Shown here in pieces: positions 7,818 to 36,217 of a DNA stretch of 36,217 bases (position 1 is its first letter; each line of letters starts with the position of its first letter). Source of the DNA: a virus. Under the pieces are notes generated by a model. The model did no database searches. It was not told where the DNA came from and saw nothing but the letters and a program-made list of their open reading frames with translations. Made by a program: the position numbers and the translations under genes. The stretch covers positions 1-36,217 of the IMG/VR virus record IMGVR_UViG_3300009285_000790; one strand, 5' to 3'.

Positions 7818-8295
7818 AACAATAAAACATCAATGTATTAAATGCGGCAAGGAAAGGACACTGCCAATATACAGGTTGAAGAAACCAACGTTTACTGGTT
7901 TATGTAATGTTTGTATTGGTAATCGCAGGGGCAGTAGCCAACAACTAGAAAAACATCCGATGTGGAATGGCGGTATCCAAATAGAAAAAGGTTATATAAA
8001 TATTAAATGCCCCAAAGATTTCCCCTTTAATGCAATGATTACTACTAATGGATATATAAGGGAACATCGGTTGGTTATGTCTAAATATCTGGGTAGAGAA
8101 TTGCAATCTAATGAAATTATACATCACTTAAATGGCAAAAGGGATGATAATAGATTAGAAAACCTAGTGTTAACGACATGGCATGAACATGAACACAAAA
8201 CAATAGTAAAGGCATTAAAAAATAGGATTGTTGAATTAGAGAGTAAACTAGCTGGTGTATGCAAAGATATGTCGGCTCTTGACAAATACCGATAA
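7804..8295 (+). CDS. HNH endonuclease (homing type)
   Basis: A 163-residue protein with an N-terminal zinc ribbon (CIKCG ... CNVC, residues 11-37) and an HNH core: EHRLVMSKYLGREL followed by IIHHLNGKRDDNRLENL (105-121), which is the H-H-x-N-G-x-x-x-D-N-R-x-x-N-L signature of phage HNH homing enzymes. A helical tail follows. Such genes move independently between phage genomes; this one overlaps its upstream neighbour by 14 bp, and lies just before a promoter, a typical free-standing insertion point. It does not appear to interrupt a gene. Confidence 0.85.
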   Translation: MWQLKTIKHQCIKCGKERTLPIYRLKKPTFTGLCNVCIGNRRGSSQQLEKHPMWNGGIQIEKGYINIKCPKDFPFNAMITTNGYIREHRLVMSKYLGRELQSNEIIHHLNGKRDDNRLENLVLTTWHEHEHKTIVKALKNRIVELESKLAGVCKDMSALDKYR

Positions 8296-13232: not shown

Positions 13233-13580
13233 TTAACCCCCGATAGTTGTCTCAAACCAGTCTTTGAAAGCCACCGTCCCTATATCTCCTATCTGGTAAT
13301 ACCAGTTGGCTGGCACACAGAAAGAGACTGGAACATCCAGTGTCCCCCCGCTCCCATTCAAATATTGAATAACAAGGACAGCAGGAGTAGCGTCGTTCTC
13401 TACATATATGTAGAACTCCTCGCCATTATCCACAGTAATCGTAACATTCACAAACGTAGGGTATGACGTGCTGGGTCTGTAGGCAGTATCTATCGCTCTT
13501 GAAGCCTTCACGTCCGTTTGGGTAGTTTTCAGGCCCGTGATATTCTTACTATTGACATCCAGGTCAGCCCCTCCCTTCAA
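13233..13580 (-). CDS. Small beta-rich virion protein
   Basis: 115 residues, rich in Thr, Val and Tyr with NVTITVDNGEEFYIYVEND and NWYYQIGDIGTVAFKDWFE, as in receptor-binding or decoration proteins. The best start is TTG 13580, which overlaps the previous gene's end by 17 bp; a clear ribosome site is missing. Probably a tail-tip component (inference from place in the operon). Confidence 0.5.
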   Translation of the reverse strand: MKGGADLDVNSKNITGLKTTQTDVKASRAIDTAYRPSTSYPTFVNVTITVDNGEEFYIYVENDATPAVLVIQYLNGSGGTLDVPVSFCVPANWYYQIGDIGTVAFKDWFETTIGG

Positions 13581-15657: not shown

Positions 15658-15660
15658 TAT

Positions 15661-16701
15661 CTAACCCCTTGAGTAACCCCGGCTTACTTTCCTTTTTACA
15701 ATGGTCTTGAGTGCTGTCCGGTATTCAGCCTGTGCCCTGTCAACGTAAGCCTGATACTGCCTTATCTGGCTTCCCATCGAGAGGTATTGCTGGGACTCTC
15801 TGAGAAAGGCCCCGGTCTCGTTAGCCATAGCCGTAGCGTTCTGAATTTCCCGCATTGAGGTGGCTATGTAGTCCGCCTGTGGCCTCCCTCCAACGGCTAT
15901 GGTATTGATGTGGGTTCTGGCAGTAGTCAGGTCTGTTATGGCTTGAGTAATCCTGCCAGCCATCTGCTCAATCGTGGAGTTATCAGTCAGCCTTTCCTCG
16001 GCGGATTTAATCAGTTCCTTTGTCTTGTTCAGCCACAGGGAAGCAGCTCTAGCCACAGAGCCTAACATGACAACGTGTTCCTCTTTGGCATCAAGGGTGG
16101 AAGTGGCGGCAAGGGTGTGTAGCTTATCGCAATAGATACGAGCCACGTAATCACGGTATTTGGTTGAGTCAAGAGTATCAGCACCGGCATCCCCGCTCTT
16201 AACTGTTTCCTCTAGGGTGAGAGAGGTATCGCTGGCGATGGAGTAAATTCGATACCACCTTGTCCCACCCGAAGGCATGATAAATTCTTCTGCGGCCAGT
16301 TCAGTGGAAAATGCGGTGCCGGAACCCGTCACCGTTGCGCTGCCCGAAGTGAAGGTAACTGTGCCGGTGAGAGTCCCCGCCTCCCCTGTATAAGGGAAGG
16401 CAGAGTCTATGTCAAGTTCAATCGTCTCGTTATCAATCTTCTCAAAGTTGCGGTATTCTCTGGGGGAACTGCCGACAGGATACTCTACCGTGTCTATCTC
16501 CAACAGATTTGAGATACCGCTAATGTCCAGCAGTTTAGAATTGGCAACAGTGAGAGCAGTCTCCACTACCTGGTAGGGCGCAACATCAGACACCTCAACG
16601 ACTATCTGTTCAATAATATCTTCCAGTTCATCGTCGGTATAGTCAGTGGTTTTCAGGTCTCGCTTGACCGCAGCTACCATTTGCGTCATCGTTAAAGCCA
16701 T
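15661..16701 (-). CDS. Head-tail adaptor-like protein
   Basis: 346 residues, ATG 16701 after GGAGG. The N-terminus (MTQMVAAVKRDLKTTDYTDDELEDIIEQIV ... LLEIDTVEYPVG) follows the pattern of phage adaptor proteins that attach to the portal in short-tailed phages. Residues about 113-178 carry the GTVTFTSGSATVTGSGTAFS module shared with the 697-residue neighbour. The C-terminal 130 residues are helical, with AYVDRAQAEYRTALKTIVKRK at the end, again adaptor-like. Overall assignment is moderate. Confidence 0.6.
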   Translation of the reverse strand: MALTMTQMVAAVKRDLKTTDYTDDELEDIIEQIVVEVSDVAPYQVVETALTVANSKLLDISGISNLLEIDTVEYPVGSSPREYRNFEKIDNETIELDIDSAFPYTGEAGTLTGTVTFTSGSATVTGSGTAFSTELAAEEFIMPSGGTRWYRIYSIASDTSLTLEETVKSGDAGADTLDSTKYRDYVARIYCDKLHTLAATSTLDAKEEHVVMLGSVARAASLWLNKTKELIKSAEERLTDNSTIEQMAGRITQAITDLTTARTHINTIAVGGRPQADYIATSMREIQNATAMANETGAFLRESQQYLSMGSQIRQYQAYVDRAQAEYRTALKTIVKRKVSRGYSRG

Positions 16702-17342: not shown

Positions 17343-18029
17343 TTAATACCTCCATTTGGTTGACATCTGGTGATACTGTATTTCCGGCAAGGTAAGTGTC
17401 CGGTTATATATCAGGAATTCGCCAATCTTACCAGTCAAGTATCCAGTGGTAGATGGACTTCCCGCCGTGCTGACATAGTTACCCAGCATTAACCTTGAAC
17501 TAGACAGGTCAGCAAACGTAGTAGAAGTGCTATCGGGGGCGAGTTTCTGCACACCATCAACATAAGCAGACTTACCAGTGGCGTCAGATATTACAGCAAA
17601 GTGGTGGAAGGTATCCATAGTAATCGTGCCAAGATTATTGGCTATGTTAGCATCGTTTATATCATCGTAAAGCTGTAGGGTTGGAGCTGACTGCGGGGTG
17701 ATAACATTTAGCTGTATACGGTCGTTAACAGCCCCGCCATAACCCCAGATGCCTATTGTCGCATCACCTTGTGTCTGCGTGGAGTTAGCATAGAACCAAC
17801 CCATCACGGTAACTATCGGAAGTTGAAATACCGTTGTAGCATTATTAATGATGTCATCCGTTCCATCAAAACTCCTGCCATCTGGCCTCCAGGTTGCGCC
17901 GGTAATCAGGTAGAGCCGGCCATAGTGGTCATCTGACATGAAACTAGAGCCATCATGCTTGGCAAAGTCAGTGTTGAATACCAAGGAGGGGTCAACAATA
18001 GGGCTTCCGGCATTATAATTATATCTCAT
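17343..18029 (-). CDS. LamG/concanavalin-type lectin domain protein
   Basis: 228 residues forming a single jelly-roll of the laminin-G/concanavalin type: SFDGTDDIINN, a VTVMGWFYANSTQ strand, HFAVISDATGKSAYVDGVQK, and GKIGEFLIYNRTLTLPEIQY at the end, all in the order usual for LamG_3 proteins. Such phage proteins bind carbohydrate on the host surface or decorate the capsid. No signal peptide, as expected for a virion protein. Confidence 0.8.
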   Translation of the reverse strand: MRYNYNAGSPIVDPSLVFNTDFAKHDGSSFMSDDHYGRLYLITGATWRPDGRSFDGTDDIINNATTVFQLPIVTVMGWFYANSTQTQGDATIGIWGYGGAVNDRIQLNVITPQSAPTLQLYDDINDANIANNLGTITMDTFHHFAVISDATGKSAYVDGVQKLAPDSTSTTFADLSSSRLMLGNYVSTAGSPSTTGYLTGKIGEFLIYNRTLTLPEIQYHQMSTKWRY

Positions 18030-18685: not shown

Positions 18686-18973
18686 CTACTTGTGTTTCCT
18701 CATGTGTGACTTTAACCCGAACTCCGACTTGCAAACCCGCCCGCAGGCTTCACACTTAAACCCCCCGTCTATCTCTGCGGGGGAGTCTTCGGCTGTCTCC
18801 GTGGTCGCTGTAACGGCCTCTATAGGTTCTTCCTTGACTTCCGCTACCCGTGGCTCGTCAAGCGGCTTAAAATTCTTTGGTGATTTCTCCATTGCTTCGG
18901 GTAATTCGTATATATCACCCTCCCTCCACAGGCGGTCGTTGACGTAGCAATCCCTTAGTGTCAGATACCTCAC
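18686..18973 (-). CDS. Phage protein with a classical C2H2 zinc finger
   Basis: 95 residues. The N-terminal 40 (RYLTLRDCYVNDRLWREGDIYELP ... KNFKPL) are like the short phage domain found in head-assembly operons. A Glu/Thr-rich linker follows, then a perfect C-x2-C-x12-H-x3-H finger: Cys74, Cys77, His90, His94 with the aromatic and Leu core positions in place (FKCEACGRVCKSEFGLKSH). GTG 18973 is chosen as start since GGAGG lies four bases upstream; it overlaps the upstream stop. Likely DNA or protein contact in virion assembly; unusual in phages. Confidence 0.65.
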   Translation of the reverse strand: MRYLTLRDCYVNDRLWREGDIYELPEAMEKSPKNFKPLDEPRVAEVKEEPIEAVTATTETAEDSPAEIDGGFKCEACGRVCKSEFGLKSHMRKHK

Positions 18974-19602
18974 CTTACCTCCTTCCAAAAGGCTACATAT
19001 TTCTCTATATCAAGAAGCAGGCGTTCCATAAATGCCTGATACCTTGCTTCTTTTCGTGCATCATCTTTGGGGGCGTCACCGGGATTTGTCCTGATAGTCT
19101 CATATCGTTTCATAAGCCTATCGTGGTTCACTCTGATTTCGGCTTCTATCTGGCACCGAATGTCTAATGGTATCTTGTCCCATAATGGAGAGTCCGGTCT
19201 GTTCACTGCCGGAAGTTCCCAACCCCTCAACAGCATCTGGCCCACGAACCAGTCCATGAATGTCTTGTAGAGCGAGTCAAAGCTGTGCTTCATAATAAAG
19301 TAGTTATAGAATTTTACCAAAATATTGAATAGCCACCTGAATATCGGGGAATAGGGCTGGCAATTAAAGTGCCTGAAGAAGTCATCCCGGATATCAAGCA
19401 GAAGACGGGAGTTATGTTCAAAGACATTATCCTTCGTAGGCTCCGGCATTTTCTTTATTGACCGGTATATCCTGATTAGCTCTAGCAAATGCCAGAAACG
19501 AAGCCTGTGTTCACCGGACAGACGTATGAGCACTTTGGCGGGGTTTTGCACGTTCTCAACCAGGTAGTTCTGCCATTCGGTTGAGCAGTAAATTGACCTC
19601 AT
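18970..19602 (-). CDS. Late helical protein, paralogue B
   Basis: 210 residues from ATG 19602, which overlaps the stop of its paralogue (ATGA). The C-terminal half shares the pattern WF-G-x-M-L-x-R-G-x-x-x-P-x-x-NRP-x-S-x-LW, GD-A/S-P, and a final helix LLLDIEKYVAFWKE with the gene upstream. Helical throughout, with no signal peptide. No database family recognised. Tandem placement in the late operon suggests both are assembly or virion proteins. Confidence 0.6.
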   Translation of the reverse strand: MRSIYCSTEWQNYLVENVQNPAKVLIRLSGEHRLRFWHLLELIRIYRSIKKMPEPTKDNVFEHNSRLLLDIRDDFFRHFNCQPYSPIFRWLFNILVKFYNYFIMKHSFDSLYKTFMDWFVGQMLLRGWELPAVNRPDSPLWDKIPLDIRCQIEAEIRVNHDRLMKRYETIRTNPGDAPKDDARKEARYQAFMERLLLDIEKYVAFWKEVR

Positions 19603-20201
19603 TCCCACGCCTTTACTGCCCTTTCAAAGTCAGTTAGTATCCTGTTTATAAACTGCTCAAACCGGCTGGCTTTATGCTGTCTGGCTTCAGGACTGTCACC
19701 CAACTTTTCCTCAATCACCTTGAGCCTGTCCTGCAAGATATTATACGAGTTTTTAATTGAAGCTGAAAGACTTTCCCTCGTTTCAGGCTTGATAGTGTGC
19801 CATAACTGGGAAGACGGCCGGTTGTGTCCAGGGAACTGGAAACCCCTGCGCAGCATCTCCCCTAGAAACCAATATGCTAAACCTTTATAGAATTGGTCGT
19901 AGTCAATTTTGGAAGCGCAGAAGTTGATAACAGGGTCAAGCACATTCTCATAGCTCGCAAGGAACCCGAAGGACAGATGCTTTTTAGCATCTTCCCAGAT
20001 GTCAAGCAGTATTGCAGTATTGGGGTCGGATACCTTCCCCCTCTCAAGTTTGGGAAGTTCCTGTATCTCTTTCAGCAGGGTAATCAAGACCTTGGCATCA
20101 TCCTCTGAAAGCTTTCCCAACCCTATTTTCCTTAGAACAAACTTCAGGGGCTCTTGTATGCCTATCATTTTCTTTACCCAACCACCTCCGTAGAAGCCCA
20201 T
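19599..20201 (-). CDS. Late helical protein, paralogue A
   Basis: 200 residues, ATG 20201 after AAGGAGAA. Similar over the second half to paralogue B (see that entry): FYKGLAYWFLGEMLRRGFQF, HNRPSSQLWHTI, GDSPEARQHKASRFEQF and a C-terminal ILTDFERAVKAWE helix. The N-terminal 60 residues differ between the two. The duplication is old, as identity is low. Position between the cement-region genes and the connector genes suggests a structural or assembly role. Confidence 0.6.
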   Translation of the reverse strand: MGFYGGGWVKKMIGIQEPLKFVLRKIGLGKLSEDDAKVLITLLKEIQELPKLERGKVSDPNTAILLDIWEDAKKHLSFGFLASYENVLDPVINFCASKIDYDQFYKGLAYWFLGEMLRRGFQFPGHNRPSSQLWHTIKPETRESLSASIKNSYNILQDRLKVIEEKLGDSPEARQHKASRFEQFINRILTDFERAVKAWE

Positions 20202-20895: not shown

Positions 20896-21321
20896 TTACG
20901 GGTTCAACGGTGACTGTAATGCCACAAATGCGCTTACAGTTCCTGCTGTGGTGGTAGCAGCGCCAATGGTATACTTGAGGCCGAGATACTGCTGCGTGAT
21001 GATGCCAGCGGGGAGTGGGATGACAAGTATCTTGCCAACACCTATTTGGGTATCATCATAGGCAAAGGCTTTTGTGCTTAGAATAACTACCGAGCTGCCA
21101 TCAAGGGTAGCATCTTCCTCGTCAATCACTTCAAACTTGACAGTAGCGGAGCCCGCAGACGTGAAGGCCGCATCTATGCAGATTACCACGTAGAGTGGAG
21201 TGCCGGAGCCGATGTCCCCCACTACGCCGCTCAGATTGATAGCATTGGTTGAGTAGTAGCTACCAGCGGTCTGGCTCAAGTCCTGGCTATCGCTGAGTCT
21301 CAAATCTTTATCAACGTACAT
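20896..21321 (-). CDS. Bbp16-like capsid cement protein
   Basis: 141 residues, with LRLSDSQDLSQTAGSYYSTNAI near the start, VVGDIGSGTPLYVVICIDAAF, AGSATVKFEV and the C-terminal YLGLKYTIGAATTTAGTVSAF. This order matches the Bbp16 family of trimeric jelly-roll cement proteins of short-tailed phages such as BPP-1. The gene directly follows the major capsid gene, as expected. It should clip onto the outer capsid at the threefold axes (family knowledge). Confidence 0.75.
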   Translation of the reverse strand: MYVDKDLRLSDSQDLSQTAGSYYSTNAINLSGVVGDIGSGTPLYVVICIDAAFTSAGSATVKFEVIDEEDATLDGSSVVILSTKAFAYDDTQIGVGKILVIPLPAGIITQQYLGLKYTIGAATTTAGTVSAFVALQSPLNP

Positions 21322-21349: not shown

Positions 21350-22351
21350 TTAGCTTACCGTTGCTTCCGCCACCGTGATGTTATCGCAGACCCGGATTGG
21401 TGCGTCAAGGAAACTGACAATCGGCTTACCGGCCGGGGAATCAATCGTCAGGTTGACGTTGCTCTTATTCTGCGCCTGTTTGTGCAGGAACTTGGCGACC
21501 GTCTTGTTGCAGTAGATAAAGGTTTTTGCCATATTCCCCAAGTCAACTGACGGGCGGGCATAGTAAGCATCGGTCATCTTGTCCAGAAGGTCAGCGCCGG
21601 AAGCCGCATCGGCAGTCAGGTCGGAGTTGTCAATATTGCAGATGCGGATAGCGTAGCGATAGTCCAGCAGGGCAAGGCCGAGTTTCCACTGGAACTTGGT
21701 TACAAAGGCAGTGTAGAGCAGTCCGGCCGAGTCGGTAACGAGTTGCTTACCCATGTCTTCAGAGGTCAGTCCAGCTGTAGTGCCTTTCGGGTAAATCAGG
21801 GAAACTGTTTTAGGCCCCCAAGTGATAATCCAGACGGAGGTATTGTCAGAATCGGAGCCTCCGCCCGAAATTATCTGGCTGGCATAATCCCCCGTAGTGG
21901 AGTTGTAGCGTGGGGAAAGCCCCTGTATCTGTTCCGGGTCGGTTCCCTGATTGCCATAGAATATTGCCGTAGCTGCGGTGCTGTTAAGCCCCATGACGAA
22001 GGCATCATCTTCCGATGCCCTGAAAGCAGCTTCGTTCCCGCCGAGTGCGGCAACGTCAACGTCAACCTTGCTGTAGGCTTCAAGAATACCACAGACATCA
22101 TCCCTCTGCACGGTGGTGCTTTTCTCTGGTGAGACACCGTAGTTCAGAAGCCTCCATGAACCGGTGGGTTGAGTCGCCCTCTGGGTGCTGCGGTGTCCGG
22201 TGGGCAGGTTTCCCTCCAGAACATTGGCATCGGCGAGAATGGGGTTAGAGGCTGCCAATACCTCAATTACCTGGTCAATTCCGCCGCCGGGCTTCTCACG
22301 TTTCGCATAGTCAAGTAAAGTCAAATAGGTAGAACCTATTGCAGTAGCCAT
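21350..22351 (-). CDS. Major capsid protein
   Basis: 333 residues, size and pattern of the HK97-fold capsid of BPP-1/epsilon15-like podoviruses: IDQVIEVLAASNPILADANVLEGNLPTGH, WRLLNYGV, EAYSKVDVDVAALGGNEAAFRASEDDAFVMG and FYGNQGTDPEQIQGLSPRY, which are the blocks I associate with that family. ATG 22351 follows AAAGGAGG. It lies directly after the scaffold gene and before the cement gene, a standard head-assembly order. Confidence 0.85.
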   Translation of the reverse strand: MATAIGSTYLTLLDYAKREKPGGGIDQVIEVLAASNPILADANVLEGNLPTGHRSTQRATQPTGSWRLLNYGVSPEKSTTVQRDDVCGILEAYSKVDVDVAALGGNEAAFRASEDDAFVMGLNSTAATAIFYGNQGTDPEQIQGLSPRYNSTTGDYASQIISGGGSDSDNTSVWIITWGPKTVSLIYPKGTTAGLTSEDMGKQLVTDSAGLLYTAFVTKFQWKLGLALLDYRYAIRICNIDNSDLTADAASGADLLDKMTDAYYARPSVDLGNMAKTFIYCNKTVAKFLHKQAQNKSNVNLTIDSPAGKPIVSFLDAPIRVCDNITVAEATVS

Positions 22352-22373: not shown

Positions 22374-23051
22374 TTATTTATACATAGTTGGATAGCGTGC
22401 CTTGAGACCATCTTCATCAGTCCCGCCCCCGATTGTCCTGCCAGAGTCACCCTGCGGGATTTTCTTTTTATCCCCTTCGGGCTGACCGGCCAACGTTTCC
22501 GCCATCTCGGATATTTGCTCATTGGTAGTAAGCCCTAATTTCTGGACTTTCTCCTTGAGCTTACCGATGTCAACGTGGTGCTCTACGGCTGCGGAGACTA
22601 TCGCCATTTCGGTCTTAGCCTCTTTAGCCGCAGTAAGTTCGGCAGCGTTCTCGTTGGCCTTCCTGTCAACTTCTCGCTCTTTGGCTAATATAGCAGCCTC
22701 TTTTTCTCTGAGGGCCTTCTGCTTCTGGTAGAGCTTCAGCGCATCCGGGGAGCCTTTGGCATCCTCTTCGTCAGCCTCGTCAATCCTTCGCTGGATTTCG
22801 CTCATCCTGTTTCTAGTCTCGGTTAGTTCCGAATCCAGTTTGGCTTGCGAGGTTTTGTAAGACTCCGCTTCGGCCCTTGCAGCCTTTAGCTCCCGGCCAG
22901 CTTTAGCCCTTTCGTCAGAGATTAGTTTCTGCACCTGCTCCCTGGTAAGAGTTTCGGGTATGTCCTGTGAAGTCCCCTCAGTTCCCTGAGAGGTCTGCCC
23001 AACAGTTCCCTGCTGAGGTTCGCCCTGCTTCGTTCCCTTTAGGTCGTCCAT
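22374..23051 (-). CDS. Scaffold-like protein
   Basis: 225 residues from ATG 23051 (MDDLKGTKQGEPQQG), with GGAGG upstream. Gln/Gly/Thr-rich N-terminus, then a long charged coiled coil (about 55-150: KLISDERAKAGRELKAARAEA, LREKEAAILAKEREVDRKAN), then a short C-terminal tail ending LKARYPTMYK. This is the composition of phage scaffolding proteins, and it sits immediately upstream of the capsid gene. The long in-frame extension to 23162 would run into the giant gene and is not needed. Confidence 0.75.
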   Translation of the reverse strand: MDDLKGTKQGEPQQGTVGQTSQGTEGTSQDIPETLTREQVQKLISDERAKAGRELKAARAEAESYKTSQAKLDSELTETRNRMSEIQRRIDEADEEDAKGSPDALKLYQKQKALREKEAAILAKEREVDRKANENAAELTAAKEAKTEMAIVSAAVEHHVDIGKLKEKVQKLGLTTNEQISEMAETLAGQPEGDKKKIPQGDSGRTIGGGTDEDGLKARYPTMYK

Positions 23052-23067
23052 TGTGTAAAGCCTCCTT

Positions 23068-26000
23068 CTATTTCGGTTTCTGTATTCCTTTTTCTGCTCC
23101 CCTAGCTTCTTGTTCGGCACGTTCCTTTGGGGTAAGTGTAGTGCGCCTGCGCTTCTCTGCAATGGGGGTAAACCCCTTCACATCCGCCAACCACTTATCA
23201 AGGTCTTTGTTATCCCACCGGAAGTCGTCTTTTGCTACGCTGTCAAGGGAGAGATACGCAACATATTTTGCCCAAACTTCACGGGTGGGAACATTGGAGA
23301 AGTCCCTTTCCTTTAGCCCAAAGTGGTCAAGGTAAATGTCCGCATAGAAAGCGGGGTGCTCCTGAAGATACCAGTCATCCTCATACCAGATTTCACCTTC
23401 AGGCCAATCGGCAGGCGTTCCCTCTCTAATCAGCATTATCCAGTCAGCATAGCGGTTGACGAAGTTATCCTGCACAAAGGATTTGTAACCCTCCATCATC
23501 ACCAAATCACGCTCGGTTTTATCAGGCTTCTCAAGCAGGTCATCATACTTTTCAGACGGCACTTTATCAGGAACTTGAACCCCCATATCTTCAGCCAGCT
23601 TGGGGTTCTCTTTCAGCATCCGCTCTCGCCGGTATCCCGTAACCGGCAGTTCCCAATATTCTACGAATGGCTCTACGAGCTCATCGGCAAAGCCCTTTTG
23701 ATATGCCTCTCGCCTGCGCCTGTCTTTGCGGTAATCCTCATTGGCTTCAAGGTAATCAGTCCTTGAGGTTGTCGGCAGGGCGTTGTATTCAGTGTCCTGC
23801 TCCGCCCACTTAACATCAATTCTCAAGGCGGGGACATTCCACTTTAAGCCATCATCAGTAAGTAGTTCATTGTCTAGTGCCCACCTGTAAACTTCTGGGT
23901 TATCAGTAAGCCAAACCTTTTCCTCGGCATTAAAGCCAGTAACTCTGTCGGCTATCCGCCCATGCTCTACCCATAACTCAGCCACGTTGTCATCAGCCTT
24001 GTTCTGATATGCCTCAATGCGGCGGATGTCAGCAGCGAACTCAGCATTGCCTATTCTGAATTGCCTCTTATCTTCAACAAGCTTATATTCGTCCCAGGTC
24101 TCTCGGTTCTTTACAAGAAGTTCCAATGCTTGCCTCGGAATATCTATCGGGTTGCGTCCCAAAAACTCCAACAAGCCGTTATCATCCAGTAGAAGTAATT
24201 GAACCTCCCAACTATTAGCAGAGCGTTCTTGAAGTAAATCAAGATAACTAAAGTAATTATCTATTGAGGCTTCAGGCGGTAATGTCTGTGGGGGGAGACC
24301 ATCATCGGGGATGTCAAGTTCTTCAACCAATCGCTTAAATTCATTATATGCTTCTTTGGTAAGTATCTTAGCTTGTCCCCAGATAGCGAGTAGAGCGTTC
24401 TCTTTTGGGTTAGACACAAGCCAGTCCCTTTGCGGGTTGAGAGATAGTTCAGGATTGTCCTCCACAAACTGCTTCTTCTGTTCATCATCAAGGCGGTTAT
24501 ATTCTCGGAGTAGTTCTAGTTGCCTGCGTGAGAGAGTATCAAAGGTCTCATTCTTGGCAATGCCATCTTTCCAAGATTGATAGTATTGCTCAAAAGTAAC
24601 CCCTTCCCTCAAGTCAGGCTTTATCTCGTATATTTTCTTATTCGGCATATGAGCCATTGTATTTTCTACCTCTTTAACCTGAAGATAAGAAGTAGCGCGT
24701 GAGTCTATATCAGTTAGCTGTGCCAATTCATCAGGTTTTATCGCCTCAAGGATATTAGCTAATTTACCGTGCAGAGTTCTGGTAGTGTAAATGTCCGGAT
24801 TCTCCAAAGACAACAACGGCACATCATCAATCAGTTCCCCCAACCTATTGACTTCGGCGTTGATAGCATCTTGCAATACCATCGGCTCTTTACCGAGCAG
24901 AAGGTCAAGCGCTTTCTGCGCCGTTTCGGTTTTGAGAATATCAATCTCATCAATAAGCCGACGCTTCTCATCGGGACTCATATTTTTGTCCTTAAATATC
25001 TCATCCTGCTTTTTGCTAAGTTCGCTCATGTCTCTGGCGACTCTGCGAAGAAAACGAGCGGAGGCTGAGTAGAACACGCCCTCCTTTTCAGGACCATCAG
25101 GGAACTGGTAAAAGAACAGGAGTTCGGGATGCTTCGCTTTGTAATCCTCAAACTTCTGTTCCTCATTGAGCTTGAGCATTTCCTTTAGATATTGTTCGCC
25201 CTGCTCATATTTTTCAAGAGTATTGTAAAAAGTTTCAATCGTCTGCCCTGATGAGCCGTAGGGGTTGCGGACTACAAAGGCTTTAGTTACCGGCAAATCA
25301 GCCAATGTCGGAGATGGTTGCGGTATGTCAGGACTGATACCAGTTCTCTTGAGAATAATATCCAGACTATCTATCAAATAACTGCCAAGCCCAGCAGTAT
25401 AGCCGCTTAAAAGATTGTCTAACTTTGCTGGCGATAACTGCAACAGTTCACCTAGTTTCTTTGATACCTCCGAAGTATAGCGGGTATATTGAAGTTCGGG
25501 GGGCATTTTCCCACGACTCGCCGGGACAATAGGCCCCCCCCTAAAGAAACTATAGTTTGTCATCCATTCAATTATAGGCTCTGCTATTGTTGGAATGTAG
25601 CCGGGATTGCCAGCTTCGGCTAGATTCAGAAGCGCATCCTTAAAAAGTTCCGGGTCTTTATTATCAAGCCACTCCATGAATCGCTCCGGCAGTGAGCCGA
25701 AGATAATACCTAGCTCAAACGGCTTGGGTATGCGGTAGATATTGTCCGGTGTCAGGATAATCCAGAATAAGTCTTTCTGCCATTGAGGGATTTCTTTCCA
25801 CCTGTCATCATCACGGTTGGCTAGATAAAGCAGGATTGAAGGTAGAGTAATACCCATAAATACTTTGGCTGAGGTTCTTCCCGGATGCTCCTTGAATGAA
25901 CTTAACATCCGCCCCCAGCCACGAATATTAGCGTTCCAGAAAGCTATCATAGTATTGATGGCTTTAGCAGTAGTACCCATTTGAGAGAAGTCAAGAGTTA

Positions 26001-29000
26001 CAGCCCGTGCAGAATAACCCGCCTCTAATGGAGTAGCCCCCCTACGGATACCAGCTTTGAACTCACCAAGCCTTGTGCCTTTTTCGCCGAGTTCGCTGAT
26101 GATTCTCAAAAGTTCCATCGGGTGTTTCACATAAGTTAGAGCATCCCTGCCAGACATTAGTTCCTTCCATGTCTTTTGCAAGTAATCTCTATCCATTGAA
26201 ACCAGCATAGAGTGTTCTGCCCCTGATTGCCTGAATAAATGGTAATCCGCATCTTTAGATATAATACTAGCCAACCCCCTCAGGAAATCTATACCAGGAA
26301 TGAAGCCATAATTTGAGTAGGCGAAAGCTGTCATCTGGTCTCTGGCAGGGTTTCTCACCATGAAGTCGGGGCTTAATGTAGCACCAGCACGAAGCCACCT
26401 GGCGGGGGCGCCGAGTATTCTGCCGAGCATACCGATTGATTCCCTGTCAAGGTGAAGCAGCGCTTCCCTTAAATCAGCATCAACCTTGAAATACTTTTTC
26501 TTACCATCAATCAGGACTGTAACCTCATCGCCTTTGGTGAAGAATGAGGGGCGGAATATGTCTATCACTGCTTCCGCATCGGCATCGGTCATCCCCTCAA
26601 TCTCAACCCCAAGTTCTTTTGCAGTTATGCCAGCCACTCTTGCTATCGGGGTTTTCACCCGCTCAAAGACTTCAGTTACCTGCGGGAATTTGTCAGCAAG
26701 GTTCGCCAGCATAATGCCAACCTGATTGCGCTCCGCAGCATCCATCAAGACATATGTATTCTTAACGATGCTTTCAAGTGGATTGATTATCTCACGCTCG
26801 GAGCCTTTAATCTTTTTAATCGGCTGGGCTATGTTTGCCATCTTCTTGCCCATCAAGCCTTTTGCTTGAAGTTCATTGAACACACGATAGAATGGCACGT
26901 AGCTACCATACTTGCGAAGTTTAGTAAGCATATCCTCGCTGATTAGCCCCATCTCACGGCTATAGACAAGCAGTCTGTCCTGATACTGATATATTCTATC
27001 AGCAAGTCCGGGGAAGTTAGAGTATTTAGCTTCAAGGGCAGCGAGAGCAGCGGCAGATTCAGCCTGGCTGATACCAGTCTTAATATCACGCATGGATAAT
27101 TCAAAAGCTCGTTTAGCGACAAGGTAAGTTGAGAAATCCCGCCATACTTCGGGGTCTTTAGCTTCCTTAAGGATATTCTCAAGGGACTCGCCAGTGAAAT
27201 TAGGCTTAGCTTTCCCCTTTTCTACTTTCCAAAACTGCTTGCCGAATGTGCCAGTCTCAAGGAATGTGTTAGTTTTGCCGGTGATACCCCTCTGAAGCCT
27301 TGCTAGCAAGTAGGGATTTTCATCAATGGATAATTCAACGCCTTGCTTTTTAAGTTGGTCAGTTAGCTTCTTAATGGCGAACAGGTCATCAACCATCTTG
27401 ACATTGAACTTATGCCAACCACGTCTTATCTTGTCAGTGAAGCCTTCTTGCTCGGGCTCAAACTGTATTCTGTCATGGACTAGCCTTACAGCATCCCCCT
27501 GTGGAGGCGGGACTGCGGGTTGCTCTGGCACAGTAGGAATTTTACCAATTGCTTCATTGGGGGGTTGCAGCCCAAGTTCAGGCATACTAGGTTCGGGGGT
27601 GGGAAGTTTTTCAATGTTATATCGCCCAATCTGTGATTTTTCAACAGAAGTTCGGCTACCATCAGGCCACTCAACAAGAAACGCAGGTTCCCCTGTTCGA
27701 ACCATTGTAGTCTCATTGACTATCTTCCCCATAGGCTGACCAGGAACAGGCGCTGTAACAGCCGTCTCACGGGCTACGAGAGGCTTCTCGGCCATGATGC
27801 CCGCCGCCTCTACCTCATCAAACACCTTGTCAGTGATATTATCTTTAATGTCTTCGTAGACAGGGTTGTCACTCGCCTCTTGTTTCAGTGACTGTTTTAT
27901 CCTGTTGACAGATGATACGCCTATCTGCCCGACTCCACCGAGTATAGTCGTCAACAGGAATGTCTGCGGGGCAATCTCCTTGAAAGCCTCTACCCAACTT
28001 ATTTTGCCTTCACGCAGCCCGGCCTGAACTTCTATATCAGATTGCCCCTTCTGGGTTATCGTTTCAGTCAAAAACTCCTCTCCGTATAGAGAGGCAAGTT
28101 TAGCTATTATTCTGACGGCTATTGATTTCCCTACCATTCTTCCTAGCGGGGCAGTCAGTATCTTGGCGAAAGCCAGATTGCTGATAGCCTCCGGCACGGC
28201 CTCCCACAGGCCATACTTAATCGCCAGGTTAGAAAAGTCCTGCTTCAACTGCCCTTCTTCCTGAAGGGTAATTTCTCTCCCCAGTGTAGCCTTCATTTCC
28301 TCATTCTTGGCTTCAAGGTAAATCTGCATTATCTGATAGCTGCTCATATTGAAAGCGACGGCGCCGGAAGCTGCCGTGCCAGCAGTCCAAGCTGCTATTC
28401 TGGATAACGGTGTTGGTTCTGGTATTAAAGCGATAGGGACGCCGACAGCTAAACCTGCACCCATAGAAGTCAAGGAGAAAGACATGGATTGGGGCAAAGT
28501 GGCCAGGTCACCCAGGGGAATAGGCAGGCGGATACCAGAATATTTTTCGGTAACATCATTGGCAAATGCGTTTATATCCTCATTGGCTTCGCTGATTAGA
28601 TTGTCAGCCCAATCTTTATTTACGGCACTTGCCCCCCAGTACCCCTGGGTAGCGCTAAGAATAGATGCGGCTAACTGCCTGGGGAGCTTGGTTAATGACT
28701 CCCCGAATATCTTGAATACATGCCAGTAATTTCTGCCAGTTTCAGTAGTTAATCGCCATTGATTAAGTTCTCCCTCATAACCCTTGGGATACCTTTTGTC
28801 AAGTTCAGATTTGGTTATGACTTCGCCTGTTTTGACATTTTCCCATTCCGGCTCTGGTTGCAATACTGTCTCCGCACCAACTGCCTGCGCCTCTGCGAAG
28901 AACTCCTGCACGGTTGCTTCGGAAGCCCCCAGCGCCTTCAGCAGGTTCTCCGTTTCCGATGTCCTGCCTCTTTGCTGGAGCATGGTTACAAAGTCGGATT

Positions 29001-29664
29001 GGAATTTATCATCGGTTTCAATATTGGTAAGCCACGTATCAACAATGCCTTCGCCAAGCTGTTCATACTCCGGGAAAACATCAAAGAAAGCCCGATTGAG
29101 ATTAGCCCTGCGTTCCTCAAGTGGCGCAAAGTATTCCTGCACCTGGAGAACAAAATCTTCTATAGGGATATTCGCATACTGCGCCCTGATGTCCTGGGGA
29201 AGTTGAGGCAAGATGGTTTGTTCAAATTCTCTCAGGTCAGTCTGTCTCTTTTGCTCCAATTCCTCTGGCGTAAACAGTTCATTGGCGGGAGACTTCAGGA
29301 ACCCCTCATCAGTAACCTGCCACCCTTCGGTAGTCATTGTCTCCGGTAGTTCAACCCTTGTAGGGGGGATTTTCTCGGCAGGCGGGATTTCAGAGAACCG
29401 ATAGCCTTCATCGCCAAGCTCTACACGTAGCTGCGAGCCTTCGCCGATTCCCATCTCAAGCCCGGCATCTCGCAGAAAGTCGGGGGTAAAGAAGACCTCG
29501 CCAAGTTCGGTTAGCCGCCTCTGCACTCCGGGCATCTCGGTCAGCTTGCGGAACTGCATAGTCAGCTCATCTTCAGTTTCTATCTCTGGTTCTTGAGGCA
29601 CACGGATAAGTTTAGGCTTCCGTATCCCCCTCTCTGGAGTGAAACGCTCGATGCTGGTTGGCAT
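23068..29664 (-). CDS. Giant (2198-residue) virion or ejection protein with LPD38-like region
   Basis: The largest gene in the window. Residues about 390-600 hold hydrophobic Gly/Ala-rich stretches (GAGLAVGVPIALIP, FLLTTILGGVGQIGV) like membrane-active regions of ejection proteins. Residues about 740-1260 (SPDFMVRNPARDQMTAFAYS near 1103, SARAVTLDF and IAFWNANIRGWGRM near 1243) resemble large polyvalent protein-associated domain 38. The last 700 residues are charged and contain a recurring hydrophobic-x-x-NP/HP motif (near 1735, 1750, 1917, 2016, 2100). Place between portal and scaffold fits an internal protein ejected with DNA. No peptidoglycan hydrolase motif is evident. Confidence 0.65.
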   Translation of the reverse strand: MPTSIERFTPERGIRKPKLIRVPQEPEIETEDELTMQFRKLTEMPGVQRRLTELGEVFFTPDFLRDAGLEMGIGEGSQLRVELGDEGYRFSEIPPAEKIPPTRVELPETMTTEGWQVTDEGFLKSPANELFTPEELEQKRQTDLREFEQTILPQLPQDIRAQYANIPIEDFVLQVQEYFAPLEERRANLNRAFFDVFPEYEQLGEGIVDTWLTNIETDDKFQSDFVTMLQQRGRTSETENLLKALGASEATVQEFFAEAQAVGAETVLQPEPEWENVKTGEVITKSELDKRYPKGYEGELNQWRLTTETGRNYWHVFKIFGESLTKLPRQLAASILSATQGYWGASAVNKDWADNLISEANEDINAFANDVTEKYSGIRLPIPLGDLATLPQSMSFSLTSMGAGLAVGVPIALIPEPTPLSRIAAWTAGTAASGAVAFNMSSYQIMQIYLEAKNEEMKATLGREITLQEEGQLKQDFSNLAIKYGLWEAVPEAISNLAFAKILTAPLGRMVGKSIAVRIIAKLASLYGEEFLTETITQKGQSDIEVQAGLREGKISWVEAFKEIAPQTFLLTTILGGVGQIGVSSVNRIKQSLKQEASDNPVYEDIKDNITDKVFDEVEAAGIMAEKPLVARETAVTAPVPGQPMGKIVNETTMVRTGEPAFLVEWPDGSRTSVEKSQIGRYNIEKLPTPEPSMPELGLQPPNEAIGKIPTVPEQPAVPPPQGDAVRLVHDRIQFEPEQEGFTDKIRRGWHKFNVKMVDDLFAIKKLTDQLKKQGVELSIDENPYLLARLQRGITGKTNTFLETGTFGKQFWKVEKGKAKPNFTGESLENILKEAKDPEVWRDFSTYLVAKRAFELSMRDIKTGISQAESAAALAALEAKYSNFPGLADRIYQYQDRLLVYSREMGLISEDMLTKLRKYGSYVPFYRVFNELQAKGLMGKKMANIAQPIKKIKGSEREIINPLESIVKNTYVLMDAAERNQVGIMLANLADKFPQVTEVFERVKTPIARVAGITAKELGVEIEGMTDADAEAVIDIFRPSFFTKGDEVTVLIDGKKKYFKVDADLREALLHLDRESIGMLGRILGAPARWLRAGATLSPDFMVRNPARDQMTAFAYSNYGFIPGIDFLRGLASIISKDADYHLFRQSGAEHSMLVSMDRDYLQKTWKELMSGRDALTYVKHPMELLRIISELGEKGTRLGEFKAGIRRGATPLEAGYSARAVTLDFSQMGTTAKAINTMIAFWNANIRGWGRMLSSFKEHPGRTSAKVFMGITLPSILLYLANRDDDRWKEIPQWQKDLFWIILTPDNIYRIPKPFELGIIFGSLPERFMEWLDNKDPELFKDALLNLAEAGNPGYIPTIAEPIIEWMTNYSFFRGGPIVPASRGKMPPELQYTRYTSEVSKKLGELLQLSPAKLDNLLSGYTAGLGSYLIDSLDIILKRTGISPDIPQPSPTLADLPVTKAFVVRNPYGSSGQTIETFYNTLEKYEQGEQYLKEMLKLNEEQKFEDYKAKHPELLFFYQFPDGPEKEGVFYSASARFLRRVARDMSELSKKQDEIFKDKNMSPDEKRRLIDEIDILKTETAQKALDLLLGKEPMVLQDAINAEVNRLGELIDDVPLLSLENPDIYTTRTLHGKLANILEAIKPDELAQLTDIDSRATSYLQVKEVENTMAHMPNKKIYEIKPDLREGVTFEQYYQSWKDGIAKNETFDTLSRRQLELLREYNRLDDEQKKQFVEDNPELSLNPQRDWLVSNPKENALLAIWGQAKILTKEAYNEFKRLVEELDIPDDGLPPQTLPPEASIDNYFSYLDLLQERSANSWEVQLLLLDDNGLLEFLGRNPIDIPRQALELLVKNRETWDEYKLVEDKRQFRIGNAEFAADIRRIEAYQNKADDNVAELWVEHGRIADRVTGFNAEEKVWLTDNPEVYRWALDNELLTDDGLKWNVPALRIDVKWAEQDTEYNALPTTSRTDYLEANEDYRKDRRRREAYQKGFADELVEPFVEYWELPVTGYRRERMLKENPKLAEDMGVQVPDKVPSEKYDDLLEKPDKTERDLVMMEGYKSFVQDNFVNRYADWIMLIREGTPADWPEGEIWYEDDWYLQEHPAFYADIYLDHFGLKERDFSNVPTREVWAKYVAYLSLDSVAKDDFRWDNKDLDKWLADVKGFTPIAEKRRRTTLTPKERAEQEARGAEKGIQKPK

Positions 29665-29995: not shown

Positions 29996-31753
29996 TTATT
30001 CCCCTCCGGTTGCCGTCTGTCTGCGAACCACAGACTCACGGCTTTCACTTCTTTCCTCTAACTCATCGGGGGTAACTTCTTCTTCACGCTCCGATTGGCT
30101 ACCACCGCCACCAGCCATAAGGGGAACCATCGGCTTTGATGAACTACCCTCTGTTTGCTTGCCTTCCATATTCAATCCTGTAAGCTGCCCCGCAGCCCTT
30201 TGCCGCAGGATAGTCTCTAGCTGTTGGAGTGTAAGTTCAGACTTCAAATAGAACTTCTCCTGTTCTTTCTTATCATCCAGCGAGTCTCCCCTGTCCCTGT
30301 AAGCGTAAACCTGGTCGTAAAGGACATTCCCCGCATCCATTCTGTCCGCCAGCTCCTGTTTTTCCATCGCTAACTCACCGGCTACATCCTGGACTTTCAG
30401 GGTATTGGTCAGGATACTCCGCCATGAAAGCCCCAAAGCCCTCTGCTGCTGGGCAACGGCGGTGTTGGATATATCCTGCTCCGGCGAGGTCGGCGTGAAG
30501 TCGTAGAAGATAGCGAACTTCTTGTCAATGTCTTTAGTATCATATTCCCTTTCCAACCCCGGCTCCCCAAGTTCAGCTTTAATTCCACCCTTAACATATT
30601 GCCGTAACAGCATCTTGGCCGTCTGGCGGTAGTAGAGAGCCATATCGTGCAGTCTCATCATTACTATGGCATCCCTTGTTCCCATCATCTTTGAAATTGC
30701 TACCGCTGACAAAGGCATGGTGAGCGTGCCGTATTCCAGGTTGGAGAAGGTAGCCCTCTGAAGCGCCGATAGTAGAAGATACTGCAAACTCCGCGAGGCG
30801 TTCTTAATATCATTTATAGGCAGGGCCTTATAACCACCGCCCTTTTCTACCGGTATGACTTTTCGTGTGCCCCTTATCGGCTGCTCCGGCTTCTTCGCCT
30901 GTTCCCCCATTTCGCTATGATATTCCCACCCGCCAAGGAAGGACATCATATCAAGAGTCGTGAGGATAGAGGCGTGGCGGTTTATTTCAGGATAGAGGTC
31001 TCTGACAACAGCATAGATGCTCTCGCCACGATACTTGAAAAAGTCGTCATCCATGAGCATGGGGCCAGTTGCACTTTCCACAACCACATAGGGCACATAG
31101 CCGAGAGTGTTTTCCGCCTCCCATATTTTCTTGCCAGCCACGTAAGTCTCCAGCACTTCCGTATCAGCAAACGGCTGAACGGGAATATTCTTTCCGGCTG
31201 GTATCTTCCCCGCAGCACTGGGGTACTCGCTTTCAATCATGGCTTTGGTGCGGAAGAACTTTGGGGAAGCCCAAAGCAGCCCGTCAGCACCGAACTCGTA
31301 GACGGTATGCCTCGCATCGCAGGGGATAATGTCCGGCACATAAGTCCCGCCAACTTCCCTGAGTAAGTTTTGGGTTATAATCGTTCCCCTGATACAGTCC
31401 TGTTCAATGATAAATGGTTTTAGTATTCTTGACCCTTTAGCCATAAGACGGACATCAACACTGGTAAACAGGTCATCAATGCAGCCTTCAATCAGGGCGG
31501 TTTCCCTGTCAGATAGCCCTTTACCTACGACTCTTGACTGCATGTGAGATGAGTTAATAATGGCAAACACCTTCTCCGCAAACATCCTGGGTTCCGGCAT
31601 GGTAACACTGATGGCATCAGGAATACTCTTTGAGTTCTCATCCTTCAGGGTGTATTTTTCCAGGATATAAAGCGCCCTGTCATTCGTCTGGCGGGTGAAG
31701 CGGCCACTGAATATTTCTTCCATCTCTTTGATTTTAGCTAAATTATCTGCCAT
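29996..31753 (-). CDS. Portal protein
   Basis: 585 residues, the size of a dodecameric phage portal. It follows terL and precedes internal and scaffold genes. N-terminal half is mixed (CDARHTVYEFGADGLLWAS, TYVAGKKIWEAENTLGYVPYVV), the central region has long helices (ASRSLQYLLLSALQRA, RLHDMALYYRQTAKMLLRQY, as in portal stem and crown), and the C-terminal 100 residues are charged and probably disordered (EEEVTPDELEERSESRES). The assignment rests mainly on size, operon place and helical pattern; no enzyme motif is present. Confidence 0.8.
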   Translation of the reverse strand: MADNLAKIKEMEEIFSGRFTRQTNDRALYILEKYTLKDENSKSIPDAISVTMPEPRMFAEKVFAIINSSHMQSRVVGKGLSDRETALIEGCIDDLFTSVDVRLMAKGSRILKPFIIEQDCIRGTIITQNLLREVGGTYVPDIIPCDARHTVYEFGADGLLWASPKFFRTKAMIESEYPSAAGKIPAGKNIPVQPFADTEVLETYVAGKKIWEAENTLGYVPYVVVESATGPMLMDDDFFKYRGESIYAVVRDLYPEINRHASILTTLDMMSFLGGWEYHSEMGEQAKKPEQPIRGTRKVIPVEKGGGYKALPINDIKNASRSLQYLLLSALQRATFSNLEYGTLTMPLSAVAISKMMGTRDAIVMMRLHDMALYYRQTAKMLLRQYVKGGIKAELGEPGLEREYDTKDIDKKFAIFYDFTPTSPEQDISNTAVAQQQRALGLSWRSILTNTLKVQDVAGELAMEKQELADRMDAGNVLYDQVYAYRDRGDSLDDKKEQEKFYLKSELTLQQLETILRQRAAGQLTGLNMEGKQTEGSSSKPMVPLMAGGGGSQSEREEEVTPDELEERSESRESVVRRQTATGGE

Positions 31754-31764
31754 ATCTTAGTCCT

Positions 31765-33183
31765 CTATAAGTCCCAGACTTGCCCGGCCCCCGTCCTCAA
31801 TATCTGCTTGGGTAACATTACCGTCGCACCATACCTCATGCAAGCAGACGCCAGGTGATACTTAGCCTCATCCTTTATCTTGTTCAGAGGCTTTTTTGTC
31901 TGCGGGTCTATCTCCCACATCATGTCATGTATCTGCCCCAGGAGTTGGTGCAAGTCCTCAAAGACATAGAACTGGTTTTGTTCCACAATAGCCAGAAGCC
32001 TGTCTATCTGCAACTTGACCCTCGTTATCTCCGGGGCCATGATATTCCAGCCAAGCCTCCGGTATAACTGCCTCGTTTGTTCCTCGGTAGTTACGTTCCC
32101 ACCTACCGCCCTCTCAAGCCTCAGTCTGAGAGTCCCGTCATCCTTCCTCCCCATGATGTCCTTGTAGTTCTCAATATGCCTTTCCGCCGATGAACCTGAC
32201 CCAGGCACATACTCGGCAAAGGCTACATAATCACCCACCCTTAAATAGTTCGGGGCTTGCGGGGGCAGGGGCAACCTTACCTGTGCCACGAACAGCGCCG
32301 CATGATTGGCCTCTCCGAAGTCGTGAAACGTAAGCACCGGCCAGTTATCGGGTATGGGAAACCTTTTAATCCTGGATAAAGTATCATCAAACTTCCCGTA
32401 AACCAGCCAGCTTTGCTCAATCTCATCATCCTGGGCTAAAATCTCACGGCGGTAGGAGTCATCCGACATGTCCCCACTGGTAGTCAGTTCCTTCAACGCT
32501 TCCTGCGATAGATACGGATTATCATAACTAGTGAAATGGAATGTCTGCCACCTCCCCGTTTTATCCAAAAGAGCTTTGTTGAATAACTTGGTAGCATGCC
32601 GCGGGTCTTTGGCCTTGCTGATACCCTCTGACTTCAAGGACGGCGGCGTGAAGATAAATATCGCCGTGCCGTTAGTGTCTAGTAACATCGGCTGAACTAC
32701 GTCCTGCCACGCATCCTCATTCCATAACTGGTACTCTTCCATCGTAACAATGTCACCCCAGTCCCCCCTCATCGTAGATGCGTTCCATGCAGTCTTCGCC
32801 TTTATCCTTATCTCTGTCCGGGGTATCTCTATAATATGCTCCGTCTCATCCTTCTTAAATGCTCCAGCCTCTATCCCAGGACTTAGGGCATTGACTACCT
32901 CAAACCAGAACTTCCCCACCTGCTCCGTAGTCGGCGCCGCATATAATGACCGCTTGGGCTTCGTCCTTCCTGTATTGTCACATAATACACACCCCCCTCC
33001 CATACAAGCCCAGCATTGACCAAGAAATGACATCACATGCTTTATAGCTACCCCATACGTCTTCCCCCCCCTCCGCCCAGCCTTTACCGCTTGCCTTAAG
33101 GCTACACTCCGAACAAACTCATCCTGCTTGCCTTCGTATGGCTTCGGTATCTTGATTTTTACCTTAGTTTCTTCTGCAATCAA
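31765..33183 (-). CDS. terL: Terminase large subunit with a zinc-knuckle insert
   Basis: Packaging ATPase and nuclease, 472 residues. Walker A is AGRRGGKT (35-42); a strand ending GDIVTMEEYQLW (Walker B aspartate with catalytic Glu near 149-150) follows; the nuclease domain begins near LTFHDFGEANHAA (metal Asp288). Between Walker A and the adenine region is CWACMGGGCVLC (Cys57/60/65/68), a probable zinc knuckle that is not part of the usual terminase core. The start is TTG 33183; a stop lies four codons upstream and no ATG is available. The ribosome site is weak. Confidence 0.9.
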   Translation of the reverse strand: MIAEETKVKIKIPKPYEGKQDEFVRSVALRQAVKAGRRGGKTYGVAIKHVMSFLGQCWACMGGGCVLCDNTGRTKPKRSLYAAPTTEQVGKFWFEVVNALSPGIEAGAFKKDETEHIIEIPRTEIRIKAKTAWNASTMRGDWGDIVTMEEYQLWNEDAWQDVVQPMLLDTNGTAIFIFTPPSLKSEGISKAKDPRHATKLFNKALLDKTGRWQTFHFTSYDNPYLSQEALKELTTSGDMSDDSYRREILAQDDEIEQSWLVYGKFDDTLSRIKRFPIPDNWPVLTFHDFGEANHAALFVAQVRLPLPPQAPNYLRVGDYVAFAEYVPGSGSSAERHIENYKDIMGRKDDGTLRLRLERAVGGNVTTEEQTRQLYRRLGWNIMAPEITRVKLQIDRLLAIVEQNQFYVFEDLHQLLGQIHDMMWEIDPQTKKPLNKIKDEAKYHLASACMRYGATVMLPKQILRTGAGQVWDL

Positions 33184-33422: not shown

Positions 33423-34022
33423 TTACGCATGAATGTCTGCATCCGGCCGGTGGGGAAAGTTACTATTTGAGTGTAATATGCCCCCCTCCCTTGGCCTCTC
33501 TACATACTCAATCTCAAACTGGACTCGCTGTGCTACCAGGTGCTTGCTCGGTGCATAACTGCCATCCATCTTGTTTAGCTCTTGAATGGCCGATATCGGG
33601 TCATTGAGCTTGATTGACTTGGAGATTACGGGATTGCCATCCCGGTCTAATCGCTGCTTGTGATAAAACTCCTTCGCAGCTCTATTATTCGGAATGTCCT
33701 TTGAGAGTTTAGGCTGGCCACCCTCGTCTGTGAAGTCTATCAGCCTGGCACGGAGTATCTCGGAGAGTATCTGTTGACGCTCAAGGGGGGATGCGATTGT
33801 TTCAGCCAGAGCCTTTGTTGCTACTCGTTCTTTACGTTCAATCAGCTTATTATAATAATCCCTCACGCATTGATTATGATTAAAAAGGGTTGCGGCGTTA
33901 GAGCCTGCCTCGGTGGCATCGTAGCCTGCCTTAATATAGGCTTCGGTGAGGGTCATACCGGAGGCGTAATTAATAGCGAAGTGAGCTTGTCTGGCGTTAA
34001 GTTTATTTTTGGGTTGTTTCAT
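33423..34022 (-). CDS. terS: Terminase small subunit
   Basis: 199 residues. Begins MKQPKNKLNARQAHFAINYA and contains GMTLTEAYIKAGYD, the helix-turn-helix DNA-binding unit typical of terminase_2-type small subunits (N-A-R-Q-x-x-F, T-x-A-Y-x-x-A-G-Y). The C-terminal half includes the helix DPISAIQELNKMDG and ends in a His/Asp-rich tail, presumably contacting TerL. I chose ATG 34022 over GTG 34028. It is preceded by a 370-nt leader that starts from a likely promoter at 34396. Confidence 0.85.
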   Translation of the reverse strand: MKQPKNKLNARQAHFAINYASGMTLTEAYIKAGYDATEAGSNAATLFNHNQCVRDYYNKLIERKERVATKALAETIASPLERQQILSEILRARLIDFTDEGGQPKLSKDIPNNRAAKEFYHKQRLDRDGNPVISKSIKLNDPISAIQELNKMDGSYAPSKHLVAQRVQFEIEYVERPREGGILHSNSNFPHRPDADIHA

Positions 34023-34268
34023 CTTCACCCTTTAATAGTTGAGGCGCTCTACGATTGAAATCTGACGGCGATAGCGGCCCGGCCTGATACTTAGAAAGTA
34101 GGCACCTAAGCCGAGCATCTAACCTACATGGGCAAGGCCTACGACAGCGACATATACAAGTCAAAGCAACGGATAACGGACTGGGAAAGTATCCTGCACA
34201 TGAACTCCACCGGATATTTAGTTGCTGTCAATCCGACTCTGCCAATAGAAACAGTGGCAATGTCGGCG

Positions 34269-35622: not shown

Positions 35623-36217
35623 ATGGCTACGGGGAAAGAAACTGAAGGTAAAGCTGTTTTTGAATATTCTTTAGGTAATTGGTTAACTGTTGCAGCGCCT
35701 GCAACAGTGGCAAACCTTGGTGTTGGTTTTGACGTTATGGGAGTCTCAATCCTTAATATTGAAGATGTTGATGCAGATGGTAGCATGACCGTCACGCAAG
35801 GAGCGAAGATTCTCCGTACTGCGATAGGTCTTGTAACCGCGCAACAGCAGCTTCAACAGTTTGACGGTTTCCTTGATACGTTCGCTTCACGTCCAGAAAA
35901 GCAGGGAATGTTGATTACTCCTAAGAGGGCCGTCGCGCTTGTCCGGCCTCATCTTGCCAATAATCCACAAGCAAAACTCTCGATTCTTCAAGCTCCAAAC
36001 CCACACTACGTCATCTATAAACTCGCACAGGAACTACAGACCTTATCTGATTTAGATATGGATGAAAATGTGGATTCAGAGCCCGTTACGGTAAATCGTC
36101 CTCCCTTAATAACTACAACTCAAGTATCTACCCCTGGCGTAACCGTGCACCCCTCTTCAAAAGGAAGAACTGCCCGGGAACTCGCCAATAACATGACGCA
36201 CGAATCCTTAAACGCTC
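35623..36217 (+). CDS. Partial protein with homoserine-kinase-like N-terminal motif, cut by window edge
   Basis: An open frame of 198 codons from ATG 35623 runs off the right edge. Residues about 23-41 read VAAPATVANLGVGFDVMGV, a strong match to the substrate-binding motif of GHMP kinases such as homoserine kinase (PATxANLGxGFDxxG). The ATP-binding PxxxGLGSS motif expected about 50 residues later is absent, and the remainder (DGFLDTFASRPEKQGMLITP, KRAVALVRPHLANNPQAKLS) matches nothing I know; the tail is Pro/Thr-rich. Codons favour T-ending forms, unlike the phage genes. No Shine-Dalgarno; a TATACT box sits eight bases before ATG. Could be a host or foreign gene, a chimera, or a phage virion protein. 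Confidence 0.5.
   Translation, partial: MATGKETEGKAVFEYSLGNWLTVAAPATVANLGVGFDVMGVSILNIEDVDADGSMTVTQGAKILRTAIGLVTAQQQLQQFDGFLDTFASRPEKQGMLITPKRAVALVRPHLANNPQAKLSILQAPNPHYVIYKLAQELQTLSDLDMDENVDSEPVTVNRPPLITTTQVSTPGVTVHPSSKGRTARELANNMTHESLNA

Follow-up and report, generated by a model that had tools for sequence, protein, structure and literature searches.

The window, the whole stretch of 36,217 nt analysed here, carries its late genes on the minus strand from ~11.3 to 34.8 kb. Their order is terS, terL, presumed portal, giant, scaffold, MCP, cement protein, several small unknowns, and p346 and p697. The giant gene starts with an ATG, has a GAGGG element upstream, and is flanked by the gene for the 585-aa presumed portal and by the scaffold gene. 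The initial annotation had placed a 2198-residue ORF of ~18% of the window between portal and scaffold. The frame is exactly 2198 aa long and takes 6597 of 36,217 nt (18.2%); the gene order was confirmed, the identity of the portal being presumed, and the strand, unstated there, is minus.

33423-34028, minus strand: terminase small subunit (phrog_51, 3e-18)
31765-33183, minus strand: terminase large subunit (phrog_2, 1e-26)
29996-31753, minus strand: presumed portal, 585 aa, assigned from its position between terL and MCP; weak phrog_64 match in 1 of 27 homologues
23068-29664, minus strand: giant LPD38 protein, 2198 aa, single uninterrupted frame
22374-23051, minus strand: presumed scaffold, start revised to ATG 23051
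21350-22351, minus strand: major capsid protein, epsilon15 gp7 family (PF20911, 1.3e-116)
20896-21321, minus strand: Bbp16-type capsid cement protein (PF21190, 5e-19)

The presumed portal gave no match by hhalign to the connectors of epsilon15 (gp4), HTVC034P or MW202898, and other profile comparisons were negative too. The mechanical ORF of the scaffold (22374-23162) overlaps the giant gene. ATG 23051 has a strong ribosome site (GAAGGAGG) and is probably the true start; the scaffold and giant genes are therefore without overlap. As judged from its two Pfam matches, the capsid module (GP7 and Bbp16) is of the podovirus epsilon15/BPP-1 type. No tail tube, tail chaperone or tape measure was recognised in the late region with Pfam or PHROGs, and the earlier remark that no tail tube is seen holds for these two collections.

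Adjacent genes of 200 and 212 aa (18970-20201, minus strand) are apparent diverged duplicates, and both match one place in a related locus, L002. p346 and p697 (13564-16701, minus strand) have in common a fibre-like motif of ~60 residues (GTVTF..GS..VTGSGTAFSTEL); by eye, p697 resembles a tail hub and p346 a head-tail adaptor. The gene at 17343-18029 (minus strand) encodes a Laminin-G/concanavalin-like protein (PF13385, 5e-14), a candidate host-binding protein. At the right end, a plus-strand frame (35623-36217) has a homoserine-kinase-like motif, VAAPATVANLGVGFDVMG, at its start but diverges beyond it, possibly as a chimera or by chance.

Pfam LPD38 (PF18857) matched the giant at aa 1286-1459 (E 3.6e-49, 167.9 bits, cut-off 27), and an LPD38 match was found in 20 of 20 sequences scanned. 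This match puts the giant in the LPD38 family, an already known class. The Pfam scan revealed no model besides LPD38, and the NCBIfam scan gave no match at E ≤ 1, PLxRFG model included. PHROGs matches were to large phage families of unknown function, with a marginal transposase match. One matched family is that of a 'DNA methyltransferase' giant, but the matching part lies in the LPD38 core. The initial reading of an LPD38-like region in a protein with no recognised enzyme was thus upheld in Pfam, PHROGs and NCBIfam.

A tblastn search with the giant returned 59 phage records, every one below 60% identity and mostly over aa ~745-1600. IMG/VR yielded 24 loci with the whole giant as query, ~170 with the core profile and 87 with the N-terminal profile. 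The best 80 of 170 and the best 80 of 87 were retained. Profiles for three modules (380-610, core and tail) were run against all open frames of 202 loci. A genome scan for the core gave distant homologues only, in unrelated MAGs and in Sporomusa. The giant is laid out as follows.

28720-29664, minus strand: variable N-terminal region, aa 1-315, weakly common to L031, L032, L036 and L040
27835-28527, minus strand: Gly/Ala-rich all-helical module, aa 380-610, strongly conserved, N-terminal in all carriers, weakly hydrophobic
27493-27834, minus strand: near-empty cargo slot, aa 611-724, 114 aa
24895-27492, minus strand: LPD38 core, aa 725-1590 (~870 residues), conserved, in ~170 viral contigs
25288-25809, minus strand: Pfam LPD38 (PF18857) match, aa 1286-1459
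23071-24894, minus strand: acidic tail with degenerate repeats, aa 1591-2198, net charge -41

The module order 380-610, core, tail was observed in 32 of 32 proteins having at least two modules. In most relatives the LPD38 core is the C-terminal end, and the N-terminal parts vary. The tail is limited to a subgroup, mostly with the portal-giant-scaffold gene order where flanks were covered; this order was also found, where covered, in L005, L007, L018, L031, L032, L036 and L040.

Two sequence features named in the initial annotation, membrane-active stretches and a repetitive tail with NP motifs, stood in part. The giant alone showed no excess of hydrophobic 19-mers (3, versus a shuffle mean of 7.6; region p 0.07-0.42). 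However, the stretch 390-440 is hydrophobic across 65 homologues, with a mean best KD19 of 1.50 versus 0.69 after shuffling. Hydrophobic stretches in the helical module are short, and 38% of homologues reach KD 1.6. In the tail, the repeat pair 1872/1974 scored 54 against a maximum of 42 in 20 shuffles, and profile comparison revealed internal repeats in most homologous tails. The NP motifs belong to these repeats, which are degenerate, and the repetition is weaker than had been stated.

The core and the 380-610 module were modelled separately. The AlphaFold model of the core (725-1590) had pLDDT 82 and pTM 0.80, and matched predicted viral LPD38 proteins at TM ~0.8 (E 5e-46). The model of the 380-610 module, which covers the 390-600 region singled out earlier for structure prediction, is all-helical with one 43-residue helix (pLDDT 76). 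PDB searches (profile, Foldseek and VIA-align) gave no convincing match for the core or the helical module; for the core there was none at E ≤ 0.001, and the best Foldseek E value was 0.98. The best VIA match of the core was a BAR domain (Z 6.7, 103 residues aligned, rmsd 4.5); that of the helical module had Z 4.8 with 145 residues aligned and rmsd 4.9. T7 gp16 and the N4 CTD were not among the structure matches listed, an absence that excludes nothing. A BFVD search with the helical module returned nothing at E ≤ 0.001.

The segment between the 380-610 module and the core has 114 residues in the window giant, the smallest of 21 measured. In the other 20 proteins it has 482-2407 residues, a figure that includes the alternative core where the LPD38 core is absent. 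Slot domains in relatives are GNAT (L040), ART (L032), methyltransferase (L031), ParB (L033, marginal), pyrophosphatase (L168) and GHKL ATPase (L193). Relatives with the LPD38 core and different N-termini carry N6_N4_Mtase, MTS methylase, zeta (kinase) and ART-PolyVal domains. Enzyme domains in relatives thus sit between the modules or ahead of them. This slot comparison with relatives suggests that the window giant is a cargo-poor copy; aa 1-315 or the tail could conceal unrecognised enzymes.

Several giants lack the LPD38 core but still have a 380-610 module and a tail of detectable identity. Seventeen alternative middles, including those of four giants sharing the tail only, form six clusters by phmmer, none of which matched the LPD38 profile by hhalign (probability ≤0.8%). 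Viruses with the same gene order appear to keep both ends, the core being LPD38 or one of at least six seemingly unrelated sequences. L002 is 80% identical to the window in the capsid protein and 79% in the LPD38 core; L036 is 82% identical in the capsid protein, whereas the centre of its giant is unrelated. This contrast suggests that close relatives have recombined at module borders. The alternative cores may be one fold diverged beyond recognition. The core of L037 was considered as an LPD38 homologue because single-sequence hhalign gave 89%; the cluster profile gave only 0.3%, and since the signal vanished there, homology of the alternative cores is not claimed. In L010 and L014 a relative (~7360-7840) of the HNH-like window gene 7804-8295 lies directly upstream of the giant gene; it may encode a homing endonuclease associated with module swapping.

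Known LPD38 proteins bear on the role of the giant. Mass spectrometry of purified virions detected JC1 gp69, an LPD38 giant of a Burkholderia phage, with 51 unique peptides (PMC9144972). A survey of polyvalent proteins (Iyer et al. 2017) found up to 35% of them in phages or prophages and considered them likely packaged (PMC5512222). Of the traits of this class, the packaging-gene context is present in the window, where terS, terL, presumed portal, giant, scaffold and MCP are all on one strand. Multiple enzyme domains are another such trait; none was recognised in the giant, and relatives carry enzymes in the same slot. With LPD38 polyvalent proteins (PF18857, PMC5512222), JC1 gp69 included, the giant has in common a C-terminal-side core, late location, giant size and modularity. 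It differs in having no recognised effector, an extra C-terminal repeat tail, a gene between portal and scaffold, and a core that is exchangeable in its lineage.

Pelagibacter phage HTVC034P gp44 has a homologous core (31% identity, profile E 1e-258); however, it is 1229 aa long and is without the tail or the 380-610 module. Bacillus phage Page, likewise a cultured phage, has a homologous core too. The HTVC034P order is tail tube A, tail tube B, an internal-virion-B-like gene, gp45, giant gp44 and tail fibre. The gp44 gene is thus in the position of T7 gp16, after the tail tubes and internal virion proteins, whereas the window gene is not. The likeness to T7 gp16 (internal virion protein D) lies in proposed role and in gene position in relatives; sequence homology was not detected (no hmmsearch match at E ≤ 1; hhalign probability 0.1), nor did the other T7, epsilon15 and BPP-1 ejection proteins tested show homology to the giant. 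Unlike T7 gp16, the giant has no transglycosylase domain by Pfam. Among gp16-type proteins, this N-terminal domain is absent from P22-type members. The domain make-up of T7 gp16 varies among phages, and ejection proteins are mosaic (PMC8954989). N4 virion RNA polymerase gp50, which is ejected, has a membrane-associating N-terminus, a middle payload and a large C-terminal domain, and its N-terminal domain enters nanodiscs (PMC12633501). The likeness of the giant to gp50 is one of layout; Pfam and PHROGs revealed no single-subunit RNA polymerase domain in the giant. The 4433-aa protein of Klebsiella phage LASTA (DarB-like / PLxRFG) carries the 380-610 module (E 1e-75).

The giant is probably carried inside the head of a podovirus-like phage and ejected with the DNA. 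Packaging and ejection are likely because of the JC1 gp69 virion peptides, the polyvalent-protein survey, the position of HTVC034P gp44 and the N4-like layout; membrane contact is inferred as well. The initial annotation had proposed an ejection protein. That proposal is favoured by the LPD38 class, the late position by the packaging genes in the relatives checked, and the two phage precedents, and is regarded here as likely. The giant would lie close to the portal in the head and would enter the host before the DNA or together with it. On ejection, its N-terminal helical module (380-610) would associate with the host membrane. The LPD38 core would act as a constant delivery or assembly domain, and enzymes, where present, would ride between or before the helical module and the core. 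The acidic repeat tail would be an extension specific to this lineage, with a possible role in docking to portal or scaffold. With its slot nearly empty, the window copy probably serves mainly for delivery itself (DNA entry or anchoring), with no effector carried.

A bolder form of this role, in which the giant alone stands in for T7 gp14/15/16 by forming a trans-envelope DNA conduit, seems rather unlikely to us. It supposes that these phages encode no other large internal virion protein: among the genes covered, the portal-giant-scaffold relatives checked by ORF size have one giant and, besides terL and portal, no more than one further ORF above 500 aa, the extra one being p697-like or a similarly placed protein of 695-915 aa. 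The window has no recognised gp14- or gp15-like gene, and the helical module, with its conserved hydrophobic stretch, is predicted to be all-helical. However, the brevity of the hydrophobic stretches and the lack of homology to channel-forming ejection proteins argue against a conduit, and the small unknown late genes could provide other channel parts. The trans-envelope channel put forward initially stays conjectural, given modest membrane propensity and no homology to T7 gp16 or to the epsilon15 ejection proteins tested. For the LPD38 family, delivery of effector domains is no less well known, and the giant might instead be an effector or anti-defence protein injected in the manner of P1 DarB, its activity lying in aa 1-315 or the tail and the protein being dispensable for DNA entry. 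The methylase, ART, zeta, GNAT and other enzyme domains of relatives favour this, as does P1, in which the DarB ORF is listed beside the portal ORF (PMC9024508). Unlike P1 DarB, an adenine methylase fused to an SF2 helicase, the giant has no methylase or helicase by Pfam; no enzyme of any kind was found in it, and its cargo slot is the shortest of those compared, so that we consider an effector role unlikely.

A tape-measure protein of a long-tailed phage, suggested by the large size and by the tail-fibre-like motif common to p697 and p346, is highly improbable. The gene is upstream of that for the capsid protein and is flanked by presumed portal and scaffold, the late region has no tail-tube, tail-chaperone or tape-measure family match, and the capsid module is that of a podovirus. 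In addition, homologues in HTVC034P and in a 'Podoviridae sp.' record stand beside separate T7/P22-like tail genes.

These findings place the giant among the LPD38 proteins, most probably as an internal head protein ejected with the DNA. New here are the near-empty cargo slot, the lineage-specific acidic repeat tail, the portal-scaffold location and the exchange of the core between constant ends. A wider reading, which we regard as speculative and unlikely to hold in full, is that a single-polypeptide delivery chassis replaces the usual three-protein ejection set. Its ends, a membrane N-end and an acidic repeat C-end, would be constant, and its centre of ~1000 residues (LPD38 or one of at least six unrelated sequences) would be exchanged when close relatives recombine; the window copy would be a stripped form, free of cargo. 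LPD38 giants are widespread, yet the sequence and fold searches made here gave no solved homologue. The natural part swaps (same ends with another core; same core with other cargo) could separate the packaging, membrane-crossing and host-acting parts of these proteins, and the compact, cargo-poor copy in the window is a candidate from which a minimal phage protein-delivery unit could be defined.
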